64,000 nucleotides of DNA from NCBI GenBank assembly GCA_012960155.1, contig DUBU01000039.1, forward strand, positions 110,745-174,744, given 5' to 3'. This DNA is from Micavibrio sp. Its GTDB lineage: Bacteria; Pseudomonadota; Alphaproteobacteria; Micavibrionales; Micavibrionaceae. The position numbers and the translations under genes were made by a program. The notes beneath the pieces are model-generated. The model did no database searches. It was not told the DNA's origin and was given only the letters and a program-made list of their open reading frames with translations. This document shows positions 55,689 to 64,000 of the stretch, in pieces. Within the stretch, counting starts at the first letter, position 1, and every line of letters begins with the position of its first letter.

Positions 55689-56843
55689 ATGTCTAACGAT
55701 ACTCCCAAATATAAATTGATTTTGATTCTGCTGGCTGTGGTGAATGCCCTGCCGATAATAGGAGTCTTGGGCGGTATCTGGTCCATGCATCAGGTTGGAT
55801 TTTTCTATTGGAGTGAATCTCTCCTGCTCGCTTTTTTTGCCTTAAGTGCCTACGCACGGTACTTGCTAATTTTTATGGCGATTTCTGCACTAGTAGCAGC
55901 CCTTGTCTATATAACAGAACCGTTCTTTTTGAACTTTTATAAAATGACGGCCTTATACTGGGCAATCTACAGTATATGTGTGCTGATCTATATTGAGGTT
56001 ACGCGCTCCACATACGGTGTGACAATTAGAAAGCTACCCACAAAACATAAGCTGGGTGTCTATGCTGCGTTCTTGCTGGTATCTATCTGCTTTACAGTCT
56101 TTCTGACATCGTTCTTGTACCCATATCTTGGCGATGTGCCTTTGGTGGAGTTTGATTATTACCGTGTGTTGATTGTGGCCTCCATCATTGTGCCGTCTAT
56201 TTCTATGGCCATGTTGAAGATGATCAGCATGATTGGAGAAAAGCACTTTATCGACTTCTTGCTCGGCACATACCACACGCCCGTCGAAAGCGAGAGCATT
56301 GTTGTATTCCTCGATATGGTGGGATCATCCGCTATGGCGGAAAAGTTAAGCCCGCAAAAGAGCATGGATTTGATCGCGCGCTTTATCTACGACTGTAGTT
56401 ATCTGTTCCGTATCCATGGTGGTGACATTCTAAACTACACAGGGGATGGTCTGGTAGCCACTTGGCCTTCGACCGACTCTCATCAGGCGTTGTCGGCGAT
56501 GTATGCCTTGCGTAAACATTTTGCAACTCGTGATGTGAAGAAAGCCTACTGGAAACGTTTCGGGCGCGTGCCTGATTTCCGTGTGGGTGTACATGTCGGC
56601 CCTGTTGTTATCAGCCAAATCGGTGAAGAGAAGCTCTTCCTTGGTCTTTACGGCGATACTGTGAATACGGCTGCGCGCCTTGAACAAATGAATAAAGAGC
56701 TAGGTACAAAAATTCTAGTGTCCGAGCCTGTTATTGTGAATGCCGGCCAGACCTGGAAGACCATTCTCAAACCGCTTGGCGAAAAAGAAATCCGCGGCCG
56801 TAAAGGTCATGTAAGGGTTTACACTATTTTAAGCGAGGTTTAG
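55689..56843 (+). CDS. membrane class III adenylate/guanylate cyclase
   Basis: 384 residues. Six predicted membrane helices lie in residues 1-185 (LILILLAVVNALPIIGVL through VASIIVPSISMAML), followed by a class III cyclase domain from about 200. The metal-binding Asp residues are D209 (VVFLDMVGSS) and D253 (NYTGDGLVATW). The later FRVGVHVGPVV and LYGDTVNTAARLEQMNKE provide the base-specifying and transition-state Asn/Arg residues, so the enzyme should be active. Substrate (ATP more likely than GTP) and signal are unknown. Its end overlaps by 20 bases the end of the convergent giant exonuclease gene. Confidence 0.93.
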   Translation: MSNDTPKYKLILILLAVVNALPIIGVLGGIWSMHQVGFFYWSESLLLAFFALSAYARYLLIFMAISALVAALVYITEPFFLNFYKMTALYWAIYSICVLIYIEVTRSTYGVTIRKLPTKHKLGVYAAFLLVSICFTVFLTSFLYPYLGDVPLVEFDYYRVLIVASIIVPSISMAMLKMISMIGEKHFIDFLLGTYHTPVESESIVVFLDMVGSSAMAEKLSPQKSMDLIARFIYDCSYLFRIHGGDILNYTGDGLVATWPSTDSHQALSAMYALRKHFATRDVKKAYWKRFGRVPDFRVGVHVGPVVISQIGEEKLFLGLYGDTVNTAARLEQMNKELGTKILVSEPVIVNAGQTWKTILKPLGEKEIRGRKGHVRVYTILSEV

Positions 56844-59800
56844 AGCCTGACTTCTTCTTAGGCTTGTCCTGCACACCATCATTATCATTAGATGGGATAT
56901 GCGTACGGTATGCCGATGGCGACGGATGCTCACCATTATAGACAAAGCTTGCTTGCGGACGGTGCGGCGGATCAAAGAATGCCCAGCTGTCCTTATCGAC
57001 AGGTTTAAAATCGAGAACCAGAATTTCTTCATCTTCTACACTAGGAGACTCACGATCAAGGAAAGCTGAGTTCACTTTCTCCCACATGTCATAAGCGGCA
57101 GCATAACCACAACGGCGCGCCATTTCGTCAGTGAAAGTGCCATCACATACTTCAGTATAAAGTTCGCCGACTGTCATACGGCGCGCTTTATTTAGTGTGG
57201 TTGTATAGGTATGACCAGTCTCAAGGCCTTCCTTACCATCCATCTTGCTACCCATATCAGCCAACATCTCGCGGAAGCGGATTGGCTTGCCTTCGGTAAT
57301 CTTCTGCGGACAGTAATCGGCAGGAAGTACGAGGCCAGTCAGAGGCTCATCCTTTTTGAAATACGCAAGACGCGGACACACAAGCCCATCAAAATGTAGT
57401 GACGGAATTTTAAAGCTCTGATCAAGTGCATCAACACGGCGCGAATTTGCAATCGGCATAAGCTTGCCAATGCGCATGATATCACGCTTCTTGGCAGGGA
57501 ACTTAACCCCTGCATTATCTTCGTAGGCACGCTGGGCCATTTCAAAATAGTCGCTATAACTAACATTCTCGTCAGATGGTGCTTTGTTTACATTCACCTT
57601 ATCAGGGTAGTACATACGCCCTGTCTGCATACCTTTTAAAACCACAGGTGTCCCTGTTCTGATTTTGGCTTTCTCATCCTTAGTCAAAGACTTGATGACG
57701 AGAGAATAAGGTGTATGACGTAAATCTTGTAACGGTTCTCGTAAATGAGTGTCAGGTACTTCTACAACGATATGGCTTTCGGCTGGAATTTTGTGTTTGA
57801 TCCAGTCACGTGCCAAACCTGTTTCCTCGTCGTAACCGGTCGCCGTCGCAAAGTTACCTTCTTTGCCGACAGTCTTCTTGACCTTCTCTAGCTGGCGACG
57901 GTAATCCGCGAGGAATACCTGCCCCTCTTCGGAGCGCAGGAATACTTCAGCTTCACCTGCGACATAATTAGAGAATACGCGCGCAAGTGACCCCTTGTAT
58001 TCAATAGGCTGGTTGACTTCGAGAGCTAGCAGAGCCTTTTCAAGCACAGGAATAGCTTCCCAACGCATATTTGACGGGTCTTCATTTGGCGGGCCTGCTA
58101 GGTACAGGTCACGCAGCATCTTATAACGGAACTGCCAAAGTGGATCGAGCTCATCCAGACGATCCATATCGGCATGTTTCATGAGAATAGCTGTCGCAGA
58201 TGGTTCTGAACGCATGCGATAGAACTGGATGCGCCATTCGCCCTTCTCGAATTTTTGCTGAACGGCATGAGGCTGGTGTGAGTAGTTCTGCTTGATATAT
58301 TCAATGCTAAGCTCACGCCCCTGTTCCCGACCTGTGGCATCAATCACGCGGAAATCACGGCTTAGATTACCAAGCAGCAAACGGCCTTTTTTGGCATATT
58401 TCTGGTCAAAAATACCGTTGCAGAATTCACTACGTTTATCATTACGCTCGTTTTCATCGTCCGTCAGAATGCGGCGCATACTGGTCCAGCGGAAATCCTC
58501 AATTAGACGGGCAACTGTCTGCAACTGCTCCGTATCCATTTCTTCAAGGTTGACGCGCATAAGCTTGTCGTAGCTCTTCGGATCTTCTTTCTCGCCGATA
58601 ACGACACGGCGCACAGCACCCGGTGCATAAATATTACCGTCATCTTCACGGAACTGTTCAAAGATATGAACATACGGGCTACCTTTCTCACGCAGGCGGC
58701 TACGAACCTTTTTAAAGTTGTCCCAGTAGTTCTGGATCACATCGCGCAGCTCTTCATCACTCTGGCAGTCTTGCCAGTTATCGACGGGCTGCGGTTGAAT
58801 TACAAGACGATGCATAAACTCGTCGATGGCGTTCTGATATTTAAAGATATCAGTCGCGCTTTCGAAAATCATTTGCGTCACGCCTTTTGTCTGCGTTTTG
58901 ACAGGCAAGCGCTTGGCTTTGACAATTTCTTCGCGCGCATCATATTCCATAACATCAAGATCGCCGAAACCGTTAAATACAGCTTCCTCCTCCATCATGG
59001 CATTTGGCTCTGGCTCTTTCTGGCGCAGTTCCCAGTTCAGAATTTCAACTGCATCACGAATGGCTTCCAAAATATCGCCATTATGCTCTTCGGCAATGTA
59101 GCTGTAATTTTGATCAATCGTATCCAGATCCCAGTTACGTGCTGATTCAGTATGAAGAACATTCTCGATCGGCATCACGCCAGGCCATTTACGAATACCA
59201 TCTACGCGGATCAATGAGTCAGGATCGCGTCCCTGCTCGCGCAGCATACGAACAAAATTACGTTGTGTCGGATCACGCTGTGACAAATCTTCACGAGCCA
59301 TTTGCAGAAGTGTCTTACCCTTATATGTGTAACGCTGCAGGTCTACACCATCGAGACGCATTGTAATTGCACGGCGAAGCTGACCTTGCTGGTCATCAAA
59401 TCCAAGAAACGCCATAGCGTCAGCCATAGGCTGGTTAGGATAGCTGTTACGCATAATGGCATAGATAGGTTTATGATCTTCGGTCAGATCATTGGCAGGT
59501 AAAAACTCACGCAAGAAATCTTCATCGCCCTGCATCTCCACAAGCTTCACAACATCTGGCGCCAGTTCACGACAGTAATTGTACATCGAGAATGAAGCCT
59601 TCGAGTCATAAGCTGGTGATTTGTGACCCTTACGAGCATCATAGATGGAACCATCAGGCATTCTGACGCCTTCCCGTAAACGGCGCTTTTTATTCTCGTA
59701 GCGCGTGTTGTTCTCCATCAGAAGTTCAAGCTTCGCAGATGGCACTTTCTCACCACTGCGCTGATCATCACGCTCACCAATCAGTAAACCGTCTTCGCCT

Positions 59801-60837
59801 TGAGGACCGAATAGATGCGTATCCATACCAATAAGAAAACCATCAACCGCCATATTCTTAGGCAGCTCTTTATTACTGATTGTCGCTTTTGAATGCGTAA
59901 AGAAGATGTTTGATGGATGGTAACCCGCACGCACAAGGTTCGCGCGTAATACAGCAATATCGTACCATTTGATACGGTAACCACTGACGAGCAAACGCGG
60001 CATGGTGAATTTCCAACGCTCTTCTGTGACATCGTCGGCCTCATAGGCATCCTCAGATGCTTTGCCATCCGTATAGAACAGATTCTCTATGTTCTCGTAA
60101 TACGGGCTTGATGGGTCACTATCGGCTCGGTACGCAATGCGGTTCTGCCCTGGGTGGATACGAACATCAAAAGTAATGCGGCCATCTTCAGGTTTCATAG
60201 GTCTGAAGACTGTGGAGCGCACTAATGAACCATCAGGCTGCTCGAGCATGGTCGTCTTAGGAATCTTGACAACCTTCTTCTCGGGCCCGATGCAAATTTC
60301 ACCCTTATCATTCAGGCTTAACATTCCTGCTGGGTCGGTGACAATGTTGCCATCAGCATCAAATTCTGTTGCTCGAGTTTCATCGAACAATGGCATATGG
60401 AATGTTTTGATATCTTTATTAACCGGATAGAGCGTTTCACCATTCTTGCGGTAGCTGGCAATCGGGCGCTCTTTATCTTCTTCAACACAGAACTTCATGG
60501 CAGCTAGCGGTGAGTCCTCAAAACGCTTAGCCATCTTTGCCATGGCTTGAGGGTGTTTCATACGACTATCATCGTTAAGCTCTGTGAACGAAGTACGTGT
60601 TACCGCTAGTGCCTGCGGCCCTGGAACATAACGATCAGGGCGCTTAACTTCGATTTCCAGTTCATCATCAAAGTTACCGGCAATATCCCCACGCGCATCA
60701 CCGTAACCCATAATCTGCGCAAAGCTTGTATTCAATGAGTATGCCTCAAAGTCGAAATGGAGCTGCGTGACAATACCACGTGTGACGAGGTGCCATACAT
60801 CTTTCTTATTTGCTACTTTTAACTCGTTCATACTCAT
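56824..60837 (-). CDS. giant exonuclease I (SbcB)-like DEDDh exonuclease
   Basis: 1337 residues from the ATG at 60837, 2 bases after the upstream stop; the longer frame starts at a TTG (60879) and is unlikely. E. coli exonuclease I has 475. Motif I HFDFEAY gives D29 and E31. The following GYGDARGDIAGNFDDELEIEVKRP and YVPGPQALAVTRTS match the ExoI start. Motif II SGYRIKWYD supplies an Asp near 293. Motif III region SPAYDSKASFSMYNYCRELAPDVV aligns with the ExoI ADVYAT helix (Asp near 411), but the nearest His is one residue further away than usual. An SH3-like segment with AITMRLDGVDL follows near 490-500. The remaining 830 residues are mostly unrecognised; about 900-990 may match the ExoI helical domain. 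Basic tail ending SGSKPRLK. Confidence 0.8.
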   Translation of the reverse strand: MSMNELKVANKKDVWHLVTRGIVTQLHFDFEAYSLNTSFAQIMGYGDARGDIAGNFDDELEIEVKRPDRYVPGPQALAVTRTSFTELNDDSRMKHPQAMAKMAKRFEDSPLAAMKFCVEEDKERPIASYRKNGETLYPVNKDIKTFHMPLFDETRATEFDADGNIVTDPAGMLSLNDKGEICIGPEKKVVKIPKTTMLEQPDGSLVRSTVFRPMKPEDGRITFDVRIHPGQNRIAYRADSDPSSPYYENIENLFYTDGKASEDAYEADDVTEERWKFTMPRLLVSGYRIKWYDIAVLRANLVRAGYHPSNIFFTHSKATISNKELPKNMAVDGFLIGMDTHLFGPQGEDGLLIGERDDQRSGEKVPSAKLELLMENNTRYENKKRRLREGVRMPDGSIYDARKGHKSPAYDSKASFSMYNYCRELAPDVVKLVEMQGDEDFLREFLPANDLTEDHKPIYAIMRNSYPNQPMADAMAFLGFDDQQGQLRRAITMRLDGVDLQRYTYKGKTLLQMAREDLSQRDPTQRNFVRMLREQGRDPDSLIRVDGIRKWPGVMPIENVLHTESARNWDLDTIDQNYSYIAEEHNGDILEAIRDAVEILNWELRQKEPEPNAMMEEEAVFNGFGDLDVMEYDAREEIVKAKRLPVKTQTKGVTQMIFESATDIFKYQNAIDEFMHRLVIQPQPVDNWQDCQSDEELRDVIQNYWDNFKKVRSRLREKGSPYVHIFEQFREDDGNIYAPGAVRRVVIGEKEDPKSYDKLMRVNLEEMDTEQLQTVARLIEDFRWTSMRRILTDDENERNDKRSEFCNGIFDQKYAKKGRLLLGNLSRDFRVIDATGREQGRELSIEYIKQNYSHQPHAVQQKFEKGEWRIQFYRMRSEPSATAILMKHADMDRLDELDPLWQFRYKMLRDLYLAGPPNEDPSNMRWEAIPVLEKALLALEVNQPIEYKGSLARVFSNYVAGEAEVFLRSEEGQVFLADYRRQLEKVKKTVGKEGNFATATGYDEETGLARDWIKHKIPAESHIVVEVPDTHLREPLQDLRHTPYSLVIKSLTKDEKAKIRTGTPVVLKGMQTGRMYYPDKVNVNKAPSDENVSYSDYFEMAQRAYEDNAGVKFPAKKRDIMRIGKLMPIANSRRVDALDQSFKIPSLHFDGLVCPRLAYFKKDEPLTGLVLPADYCPQKITEGKPIRFREMLADMGSKMDGKEGLETGHTYTTTLNKARRMTVGELYTEVCDGTFTDEMARRCGYAAAYDMWEKVNSAFLDRESPSVEDEEILVLDFKPVDKDSWAFFDPPHRPQASFVYNGEHPSPSAYRTHIPSNDNDGVQDKPKKKSGSKPRLK

Positions 60838-60839
60838 GA

Positions 60840-63800
60840 TCAGCTCGGTTTCAAATCTTTTGCAGACGTGTTGCTCCAAATAGGTGTTGAGCGCAGGCCG
60901 CTGCTTGCAGGGCCTCTGTCAACGATACTTGGCGCAATCTTTGCCGTACGTCCCTGTGGACGGAAATTAGCCGGATTACTAACGCGATCCCAATCCATAC
61001 GCGTTGTCTTGCGCTGGTAAACGCCATCACTGTCACTGCGCGTCATCAAGCCATCTGTACGGTTCATACCTTCACGACGCAGAAGCGTAACGCGGCGCAG
61101 ATCAAGCCAGCCACCAAAATATTGGGCATATTTACGCTGTAATCTAACAAGTACATAAGATGGGTTGATTTGCGCAATCTTTTTAAATTTGCTGGATGGC
61201 TCTTTAGCATCACGATCGACACGCATGACATTAAAGTCATCAGGTTCGTAATCGGAATGCGGTAAGCCCATCTCTCTAACTAGCGGACGGTAACGCGAGT
61301 GATAGTTATCGCGGCTTGGGTTGTGGTGAATTTCGTGTGTTTCAGACGGCGCTTGCGTCATCATCGTTTTCAGATCTTCACGGAAACCATGTCCATGATA
61401 GTGAATAGGAACGCCGGATACATGGATATTACCCATAGGATCAAGCTGTGGTGTCCAGCCCTGTTTGCGGAACGCATTCATAATACGATCACGATCCCCT
61501 TTAGGGTTGTAGATCTTAAAGCCGTTCATATACGCGCCGATATGCGTCACGTTACGATTACGGCAAAGCTCGTTGATCATGGCTTCCTGATCAGCTTCAT
61601 TGCCGACAATTGCGGACTGTGTCGTGACTGTTACAAAATCCTCAGCATTAATTTTATAGCCTGTGTTACGAACACTCTCATCTACATCAAGTAGTGAGAA
61701 GAAATCTTTGAATTTCTGCAGTGTCGAGAAACGCTCTTCAGCATTACCCTGCGTACCAGTGATAAAGATCATCAGACGGCTTGGGTTGATACGGAAGCTC
61801 TTCGCCATCTGTGAAGTACGTGTGGCACGGATAGAAGCCGTTTCTTGACGCTCCATAATCGCTTTCCACATCAGATAACCGTTTACGTCGTTATCAAATA
61901 CAACAGAGCCATGCTTCATCAGGCTCTTGAGCATATAGTACTTAGTGCTCTTGATATGCTCACGCTCTCTTGGTGGCAGAATTTCTCGGTATGCGCTCAG
62001 CGTGTTCTCTTGCGCTTTCTTAAGCTTAGCCTCGTGGGCAATTTCATAGGCGTCTTGTTCAGCTGCCTCAATGCGTTCCTGCTTTTCAAGGTTAGAAAGA
62101 TCTTCGTTTTCCTTGATTTCTTTTACCAGCTTGCTCTTGGTACGTCTAATGTCAGCATCTGTCACATCAACTTCGTTGAAACTGGCCATGTAGATATCCA
62201 GAACGTCCTGTGGGATAAGCGGATCAGGCTTTCTCATTTCCTCGAAAGGATCGATATAAACTTCACGAAGGTCGTTGTCATGCTGAACACCGAAAAGATT
62301 CTTACATGACAAACGTAGCTCAGCGTTACGGCCAACAGCAGTCAGATCACGGCCACTATTATGGGCAACGTTAAGGCCAATTGTATATTCGGCATCATTC
62401 GTACTGATAGGCGTCATCAGAACACCTTTATCGGACGCCACTATATCAAGAATGTCTTGCAGATTGGTTTCAACTTCTTCGGATGTCGGCGCATGGCCAT
62501 CGTAATTTACAGCCGTGGGGTCATGCAGAGTGACAGTCAGATCGCGATCAACTTTCTCTGGTGTCACGCCATCCATTGCCCCGAGAGCCCGCGTTCCCTT
62601 CTTCAGGAAGTCGATACCCTTCTGCGTAAAGGCATTACCATCACCATATGTCAGTACAGAGCCCTTGTAGTAATCATCTCCGTAACAGCCTGTCACAATA
62701 TAAGGTGTACAACGTGCGGAGTGGCTTACTCCATTCGGACAAGGCTGGACCCATAGACGCGCAGTGCCTGTTTCGTCTTTAATGCAAATCGGTGTTTCGT
62801 CTTTGAGGACCTTGATTTTCGGACGTAATGTGCGTGGTACCTTAAGGAAGTCCATCTTCTTATCAAGGAAGTACTTAACTTCTGCCGTAGCATAAACAGT
62901 CTTTTCCTTCATCTTGCCGGCTTTGGCATAGTAAGCCATGCCGTCGCAGTGATCGTAGTGATCATGTGTAAACGAGAAGCTTTTGATATCATCCCAAAAC
63001 GGAATGTAATCTGGAATAGCGCCATCAAAGTTTGAGTTTGTACCACCAGATGCAAACGGGAAATCCACGGCGTGAGCAACCGAACTTACTGTACCGTCTT
63101 TGCGGAGGCCGCGATGGAAGAACACTTCGGCAAGACCGATCTGATCGCCATATTGCTCGATACGCTTTTCTTGACCTGTACCGTGCAAAGATAAGTACAA
63201 GAACTCGCCGCCTTGCTTCAATGCTGGTGGCGTTGGTAGTTGCGAAATCTGATCCAGCAGATCAAATGACGCGAAGTGGTCCATGTAGCGTGGGTATTCG
63301 TCGCGTGCAACGTCCTTACCAGAACGTTGTGCTGCCCCCATAAGTTTCAAAACATTCTCAGGGTTAGAAATATCGACTTTCTCACCACTAAATGTTGCTT
63401 CGTTTAGTTTATAGGAGTTATCCGATAGCTTCTTAAATTTAAAGTATAAGAGCTTATCAAGCTTTGCGGCGTTTACACCATCAATCTCCTGACGCGGAGA
63501 GATATAATAACGCACAGAGACATCACCGTTTTTATGCGTTTTGAATTCTGGTCCTGTATCAAATACCAAACCCGGTTGCGGGTCTGTAGCGACAAGGTTG
63601 CAACTTTCCGAGAAATCCTTATCAGGCTCAATCGTGTTGATTGTCGCACCCAGCAAAGTTTTAAGGCCAGCCTCATCAAGTCCTGAGAATGTGAAGTCTT
63701 TGCCCTTCCCTGCCTTGCGCACAAAAAGCGGCGCCAAGGTAAAGGCAAAGCCACCTTCCTTGTGAAGGCCGCGAATAGTAAGGTTCTCACCAATGGCTTC

Positions 63801-64000
63801 TTCAATATAGCAATCGGCAAGAATTTTGGCGGTGTCAGACACATCGCCTTTGTTACGCAAATGCGTGTTAAGACGGTTCATGCCTTCGAGGACACGATTA
63901 ACGCGCTTGATAACCTCGGGATCGTTGGCATCGTCTTCGCCGCGTTTATATACACGCGCTGACTGTACCCAAAGCTCGTCAATTTCAACATTATTCTTAG
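60840..64000 (-). CDS. giant RNase J-like beta-CASP metallo-nuclease, 5' end outside window
   Basis: The frame is open to the window edge, so at least 1052 residues; the ATG at 63881 is internal. RNase J proteins are about 555 residues. Metallo-beta-lactamase motif THDHYDH lies at 62949-62969, followed by GVSHSARC (His ligand) and TYGDGN (Asp ligand). Beta-CASP parts follow: LHDPTAVNYDGHAPTSEE, like the RNase J SDSTN segment, then DLTAVGRNAEL, ITGTQGNAEERF (bases near 61743-61760), NIHVSG and HGHGFREDL, and EIHHNPSRDNYHSRY. Compared with RNase J there are about 270 or more extra residues before the HxHxDH motif and about 150 inserted, charged and helical, between GRNAEL and TGTQG. The C-terminal 150 residues are Arg-rich. 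Likely 5'-3' exo/endoribonuclease by family; actual substrate unknown. Confidence 0.85.
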   Translation of the reverse strand, partial: KNNVEIDELWVQSARVYKRGEDDANDPEVIKRVNRVLEGMNRLNTHLRNKGDVSDTAKILADCYIEEAIGENLTIRGLHKEGGFAFTLAPLFVRKAGKGKDFTFSGLDEAGLKTLLGATINTIEPDKDFSESCNLVATDPQPGLVFDTGPEFKTHKNGDVSVRYYISPRQEIDGVNAAKLDKLLYFKFKKLSDNSYKLNEATFSGEKVDISNPENVLKLMGAAQRSGKDVARDEYPRYMDHFASFDLLDQISQLPTPPALKQGGEFLYLSLHGTGQEKRIEQYGDQIGLAEVFFHRGLRKDGTVSSVAHAVDFPFASGGTNSNFDGAIPDYIPFWDDIKSFSFTHDHYDHCDGMAYYAKAGKMKEKTVYATAEVKYFLDKKMDFLKVPRTLRPKIKVLKDETPICIKDETGTARLWVQPCPNGVSHSARCTPYIVTGCYGDDYYKGSVLTYGDGNAFTQKGIDFLKKGTRALGAMDGVTPEKVDRDLTVTLHDPTAVNYDGHAPTSEEVETNLQDILDIVASDKGVLMTPISTNDAEYTIGLNVAHNSGRDLTAVGRNAELRLSCKNLFGVQHDNDLREVYIDPFEEMRKPDPLIPQDVLDIYMASFNEVDVTDADIRRTKSKLVKEIKENEDLSNLEKQERIEAAEQDAYEIAHEAKLKKAQENTLSAYREILPPREREHIKSTKYYMLKSLMKHGSVVFDNDVNGYLMWKAIMERQETASIRATRTSQMAKSFRINPSRLMIFITGTQGNAEERFSTLQKFKDFFSLLDVDESVRNTGYKINAEDFVTVTTQSAIVGNEADQEAMINELCRNRNVTHIGAYMNGFKIYNPKGDRDRIMNAFRKQGWTPQLDPMGNIHVSGVPIHYHGHGFREDLKTMMTQAPSETHEIHHNPSRDNYHSRYRPLVREMGLPHSDYEPDDFNVMRVDRDAKEPSSKFKKIAQINPSYVLVRLQRKYAQYFGGWLDLRRVTLLRREGMNRTDGLMTRSDSDGVYQRKTTRMDWDRVSNPANFRPQGRTAKIAPSIVDRGPASSGLRSTPIWSNTSAKDLKPS

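Follow-up and report, generated by a model that had tools for sequence, protein, structure and literature searches.

Ribonuclease J (RNase J; TIGR00649; PF22505) and exonuclease I (ExoI, SbcB; 1fxx; PF08411; NF008746) are compact nucleases, with PDB chain lengths of ~555 aa and 459-482 aa, respectively. Here we describe a bacterial cassette encoding giant relatives of both, termed B and C, together with a third protein, A. B shares with RNase J the HxHxDH motif, the motif-3 His, the motif-4 Asp, the beta-CASP motifs, and the order of the core, but has ~2x the length, a long N-terminal extension, and, in many family members, an insertion within the core. C likewise shares with ExoI the DEDDh residues, the SH3-like and helical parts, and the fold, but has ~2.8x the length, with an additional C-terminal half of ~600 aa; a first-pass annotation of this DNA had called both proteins more than twice the normal size, in agreement with these ratios to PDB chains. 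Protein A is best compared with the DUF4406/nucleoside deoxyribosyltransferase superfamily (PF14359, PF05014), from which it would differ in consisting of two tandem copies with helical insertions.

Several described systems also resemble the cassette in their likely physiology. Classical deo genes use nucleoside phosphorylases, and we know of no published deo-type version with relatives of RNase J and ExoI. DNA-foraging bacteria of marine sediments combine extracellular nucleases with cytoplasmic catabolism of DNA components (PMC8289736); the cassette would be alike in digesting DNA, but its proteins are without an evident secretion signal. Bdellovibrio, likewise a bacterial predator, is reported to have the DNA-degrading nucleases Bd0934 and Bd3507 (PMC7925074); these differ from the cassette in being secreted and in belonging to a different predator. 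We found no paper on the A-B-C composition in the open-licence literature. Both nuclease superfamilies are known, but in the sources searched we found no description of such enlarged cores, of the two combined, of protein A, or of a natural protein in which B and C are fused.

Results and Discussion

Gene layout

The window, by which we mean the whole stretch of 64,000 nucleotides analyzed (G000:C39:110745-174744), comes from a genome of 2.58 Mb in 39 contigs. The first-pass annotation described a two-gene cassette on the minus strand, with products of at least 1052 and 1337 aa and a gap of 2 bases. Both genes are real open reading frames, and the gap is as described: the TGA stop of B is followed by the two bases TC and then by the ATG start of C, for which an alternative in-frame TTG further upstream would give 1351 aa. 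B runs past the window edge, with 1052 aa inside the window; extension of the contig upstream, a check that the annotation had proposed, completed B at 1140 aa and revealed gene A, outside the window and 54 bp upstream of B (Table 1). The B/C pair is therefore real, but the cassette has at least three genes: A both adjoins B and co-occurs with it, ruling out the B-C pair alone as the unit. The gene past A is divergent and the gene past C is convergent on C, making A-B-C a self-contained unit by layout. GC content is 0.47 for each of the three genes, and we saw no excess of promoter-like sites around them.

Table 1. Genes and features of the cassette. Positions are those of the window unless another contig or locus is named.
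Feature	Position	Strand	Remarks
Gene A	L002:10062-12440 = G000:C39:175061-177439 = window-equivalent 64317-66695	same as B/C	792 aa
Gene B, RNase J-like giant enzyme	60840..64000, on to window-equivalent 64262	(-)	1140 aa complete
N-terminal extension of B (~residues 1-344)	63231..64000, cut by window edge	(-)	also in G050 fusion
HxHxDH metal motif of B (H433-H438)	62949..62966	(-)	identical in 19/19 homologues
H514 of B, motif 3 (GVSHSA)	62721..62723	(-)	19/19
D541 of B, motif 4 (YGD)	62640..62642	(-)	19/19
D581 of B, beta-CASP motif A (DPT)	62520..62522	(-)	Asp 17/19, Glu 2/19
GTQG of B (residues 836-839)	61746..61757	(-)	G839 19/19; T837 variable
H958 of B (HxHGHG, beta-CASP motif C)	61389..61391	(-)	19/19
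Gene C, ExoI-like giant nuclease	56824..60837	(-)	1337 aa from ATG at 60837
ExoI-like core of C (exonuclease, SH3-like, helical parts)	58620..60837, borders approximate	(-)	PDB profile, G055 model
DxE motif of C (D29, E31; exonuclease motif I)	60745..60753	(-)	identical 21/21
D293 of C, aligned to ExoI GYNNxxxDD motif	59959..59961	(-)	21/21
H405-D411 of C (HxxxxxD, DEDDh-type motif III)	59605..59625	(-)	His and Asp 21/21
C-terminal extension of C (~600 aa)	56827..58619	(-)	missing from G050 B-C fusion

Enlarged nuclease-like proteins

The RNase J and ExoI cores proposed at first pass are borne out by profiles and conserved residues and, for ExoI, by a structure model. A profile of the B family matched RNase J in the PDB at 2e-13, and a profile of the C family matched exonuclease I there (8e-08), with the match split into three collinear segments. 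We modeled a 1200-aa homologue of C from G055 (pLDDT 84, pTM 0.80); the model matched ExoI 1fxx at E 1.6e-12, with probability 1.00 and TM 0.63 by target length, and all 18 of its fold-search matches at E <= 0.001 were ExoI. The motifs quoted by the annotation are all present, with HxHxDH, the motif-3 His, and the motif-4 Asp kept in 19/19 homologues of B and all five DEDDh residues in 21/21 homologues of C. Because many of these homologues are only ~20% identical overall to the window protein, such invariance excludes chance. Conservation thus shows active sites of the RNase J type in B and of the ExoI type in C that are predicted to be intact.

By curated cut-offs, both proteins are superfamily members and not the enzymes proper. 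B reaches 13.6 bits against TIGR00649, whose cut-off is 400, and a homologue in G358 is over the cut-off of PF22505 (RNase_J_b_CASP); as far as such profiles can place it, B is a member of the MBL/beta-CASP superfamily and not RNase J proper. The window's C protein has no Pfam or NCBIfam ExoI match and PF08411 finds weak matches in 2/21 members of its family, so that C is, on profile and fold comparison, a member of the ExoI superfamily and not SbcB proper. The C-terminal extension of C had no match in Pfam, NCBIfam, or the PDB, and the N-terminal extension of B is likewise without an assigned family. Single-sequence searches with B and C are nearly blind, whereas profile searches succeed; this explains the failure at first pass to place the additional segments in any family. 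Genome contigs could be searched with a profile from a sub-alignment of the B family; the named relatives retrieved were MAGs of alphaproteobacteria, including one submitted under the name Micavibrio aeruginosavorus.

Protein A

Database searches gave no convincing family match for A, and none in Pfam. Its AlphaFold model is confident (pLDDT 84.6, pTM 0.85), and a fold search with the model found nothing at E <= 0.001 in the PDB or the viral collection BFVD. The two halves of A are homologous to one another (hhalign probability 92.7%, E 4e-7; 95.9% and E 5e-9 after adding two distant homologues), by which comparison A is an internal tandem duplication. Both halves also align with the motif region W..S.(GA)..E...A...G of DUF4406 (PF14359), with scores beyond all 60 column shuffles. 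The pooled profile gave P 1.3e-4 and a probability of 54% against DUF4406, with scores of 24.0 and 29.3 for the A halves and <=20.1 for control windows from the B and C families, in the motif region only and against a set chosen by that motif: these proteins were drawn from viral contigs by a DNA pattern for the motif, making the motif common to members by construction and the test not independent. Other ways of collecting DUF4406 proteins yielded one member.

Three residues of A, S202, R203, and E208, are invariant in 17/17 homologues. They form an SRxxxxE motif in the N-terminal half, while the C-terminal half is without the Glu; the motif is equated with the superfamily Glu only through the weak DUF4406 alignment. 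We take the similarity to DUF4406 as a weak lead, which would make A an enzyme on N-glycosidic bonds with SRxxxxE as its putative active site. Two other assignments of A were rejected: comparison by hhalign with PF05014 members gave no support for an ordinary nucleoside deoxyribosyltransferase, and a relationship to B or C had an hhalign probability below 1%.

An activity of this kind would also fit DNA repair or cleaning of the nucleotide pool, with C trimming 3' ends and A removing modified dNMPs in the manner of DNPH1. DNPH1, an enzyme that hydrolyses dNMPs, belongs to the deoxyribosyltransferase superfamily, and ExoI has a role in repair; ~8 kb from the B-C fusion gene described below there is also a cytidine deaminase-like gene. 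However, B resembles RNase J, A is tied only weakly to the superfamily, no repair genes were seen nearby, and the distribution of the cassette is patchy, leaving repair a very doubtful explanation.

Distribution, co-inheritance, and fusion

We searched 142 genomes of the order, finding matches to B in 22, to C in 24, and to A in 21. The A-B-C system as a whole occurs in 22/142 genomes from 14 genera, a count that omits short C matches in G007, G021, and G133 and the fusion genome G050, and that uses neighborhood clusters for members too diverged for pairwise search. The short matches are ORFs of 458-532 aa (L057 in G007, L054 in G021, L056 in G133) that match the first 100 residues of C, and may be the ordinary ExoI genes of cassette-free relatives. 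A, B, and C are neighbors in the same order wherever the contig permits, in 20 relatives' loci and the window's; absent members coincide with contig ends, and in G042 A lies on a second contig. Outside the order we found the cassette in two genomes of other alphaproteobacterial families: G358, with the order A-B-C and A separated from B by a 142-aa ORF, and G447, with the order B-C-A. An evenly drawn sample of 398 genomes of the phylum held no cassette except that of the window genome.

Trees of A, B, and C have 13, 10, and 9 of 16 splits in common in pairwise comparison, against a permuted maximum of 2-3. The trees are thus largely congruent, showing that the three proteins were inherited together. 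The first-pass annotation had staked its pairing on the giant genes occurring together elsewhere, and so they do, with kept order and congruent trees and, in one genome, as a fusion.

The fusion, in G050 of genus g22, is one ORF of 1571 aa (L256:1550-6265; G050:C116) in which the extension of B, the MBL/beta-CASP core, and then the ExoI core follow one another, without the C-terminal extension of C. NCBIfam recognizes it as RNase J plus exodeoxyribonuclease I, the match to NF008746 being at 2.7e-13 and 49 bits with a cut-off of 260. No A was found on the contig of the fusion gene. Such a natural fusion is strong genomic evidence that B and C would be functionally coupled. Some records labeled as phage also match the fusion (e.g., MT836951.1, OR845008.1); these are short and unannotated, match the RNase J part only, and look like host DNA in their RNase J-like sequences. 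The other genomes of genus g22, G046-G049, all have deoC.

Union of two polarities in one protein might be expected of an accessory RNA-decay complex in which B works 5'-3', C works 3'-5', and A handles released or damaged nucleotides, and RNase J is itself an RNA enzyme. ExoI relatives, however, are DNA enzymes. Moreover, the window genome has a separate RNase J gene besides B and most relatives are without the cassette, which argues against a core RNA-decay machine; we consider a role in RNA turnover or processing improbable.

Probable exchange between genomes

Genomes with and without the cassette occur within one genus. In G108, of the same genus as the window genome, the cassette is missing, and the gene immediately after the flanking cyclase is a different one. 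Within single genera, G042 and G043, and likewise G059 and G065, hold very different versions of the cassette. A block of ECF-sigma and membrane-protein genes lies near the cassette in five genomes (L002, L066, L073, L081, L258); the block, at 15881-18041 in L002, recurs by diverged cassette versions, as if marking an exchange site. The simplest reading is that the cassette has been exchanged or replaced between genomes. We found no relatives of B in IMG/VR or plasmids and none of C in phages, and reject a viral or plasmid origin.

Patchy distribution, divergent versions within a genus, and a recurrent ECF-sigma block are also features that a defense system against phages or plasmids could show, and defense is the main rival explanation. 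A would then sense infection or deplete a nucleotide, while B and C break down the nucleic acid of the invader or of the host. PADLOC adds a weak match (E 0.0032) between the first 80 residues of C and RTasSbcB, an SbcB-like component of defense-associated reverse transcriptase (DRT) systems, but the cassette differs from these in that no reverse transcriptase is among the neighbors read. Further against defense, no PADLOC family matched A or B, the neighbors read include no recognizable defense or mobile genes, relatives are lacking in the phage, plasmid, and viral collections, and the deoC and nucleotidase neighbors described next would be left unexplained. Defense therefore seems to us unlikely, though a serious contender, with RNA turnover and repair less likely still.

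Neighboring deoC and nucleotidase genes

The cassette is linked to DeoC-dependent deoxynucleotide catabolism by deoC or nucleotidase-like genes that directly adjoin it in nine loci, a subset only of those found. Seven of these have a deoC-type gene (cluster c3). In G068, G069, G071, and G090 deoC directly follows C on the same strand and is over the TIGR00126 cut-off. In G016, G054, and G065 a diverged deoC relative lies upstream of A in divergent orientation; none of the three has a Pfam match, those of G016 and G065 match TIGR00126 weakly, and that of G054 was assigned by clustering only. The two arrangements correspond to two clades of the cassette trees, so that the association with deoC is likely to have arisen two or more times. 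Within genus g30, the only genomes with a strong deoC match are the three that bear the cassette. The remaining two loci have an HAD gene, which follows C in G059 and lies between B and C in G119; its product is matched best in NCBIfam by pyrimidine 5'-nucleotidase, though short of the cut-off.

At most loci, the window's among them, no deoC adjoins the cassette. The window genome carries deoC on another contig, beside an aldehyde dehydrogenase gene, and G109 and G110, which are of the same genus and have the cassette, gave no TIGR00126 match. Neighbors in G358 include dihydroorotate dehydrogenase and dihydroorotase, which may be a coincidence. In loci of genus g30, deoC is followed by a gene for a 250-aa protein (L072:15034-15786, L080:4819-5586) with a zinc-peptidase-like HESAH motif and no Pfam match. 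The first-pass annotation had left predation, defense, and RNA turnover open as roles; these all remain among the readings weighed here, but the recurrent deoC and nucleotidase neighbors point to nucleotide catabolism, which it had not considered.

Proposed function

We suggest, with about as much confidence for as against, that A-B-C is a horizontally exchanged chromosomal operon for the intracellular digestion of nucleic acids, as food or for recycling. B would cut RNA or DNA internally or from 5' ends, and C would digest single strands from their 3' ends, yielding (d)NMPs; the idea of a two-ended attack, 5'-3' and 3'-5', as envisaged at first pass, is carried over by analogy from the characterized families. 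A, as a tandem DUF4406/deoxyribosyltransferase-like enzyme, may then take the base off the (deoxy)nucleotides so formed, or transfer it. A dNMP N-glycosidase of the DNPH1 kind makes deoxyribose 5-phosphate, which DeoC would split; the deoC gene adjoins the cassette in some genomes and lies elsewhere in the window genome. The benefit would likely be carbon, phosphorus, and bases recovered from prey, environmental, or own nucleic acids.

At the N-termini of A, B, and C no hydrophobic stretch stands out and no secretion signal is evident, so the proteins are probably cytoplasmic, acting on nucleic acid that is either taken up or the cell's own. A link to predation is plausible from lineage, Micavibrionales being treated among Bdellovibrio-like predators (PMC7034301).

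A more far-reaching form of the digestion proposal is that A, B, and C are a physical multi-enzyme digester, in which two nucleases with opposite polarities pass their products to tandem N-glycosidases of a new family, which remove the bases from nucleotides: a self-contained, exchanged module that yields base and sugar phosphate in the cell, with DeoC or an HAD nucleotidase as interchangeable additions. We put this form forward tentatively, and think it unlikely to hold in full.

If the digestion proposal is true, predator-related alphaproteobacteria have a portable cassette with which nucleic acids are consumed intracellularly, and with it a route for recovering carbon, phosphorus, and bases from nucleic acid. 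If the cassette serves defense instead, it is a new defense composition. On either reading there is now a functional hypothesis, open to checking, for three giant proteins so far only "hypothetical": A is an undescribed protein family with testable chemistry, and the RNase J-ExoI fusion can be assayed directly.

Other genes near the cassette

We considered one further gene as an extra partner and rejected it. It lies ~20 kb from the cassette in the window genome (L003:11351-13564), directly before an ordinary PhoH-like gene and a YbeY-like gene, and encodes a giant PhoH-domain protein of 737 aa with a long N-terminal part of no assigned family. The protein is full length in G000 only, with no full-length relatives seen in the order, while PhoH-domain matches as such occur in 125/142 of its genomes. 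In G447, too, a PhoH-family ATPase gene (L090:13163-14443) lies only a few genes away from the cassette, there ordered B-C-A. Upstream of the cassette in the window genome, L003:3779-7609 encodes a protein of 1276 aa that reads as a long coiled coil with N-terminal membrane segments.
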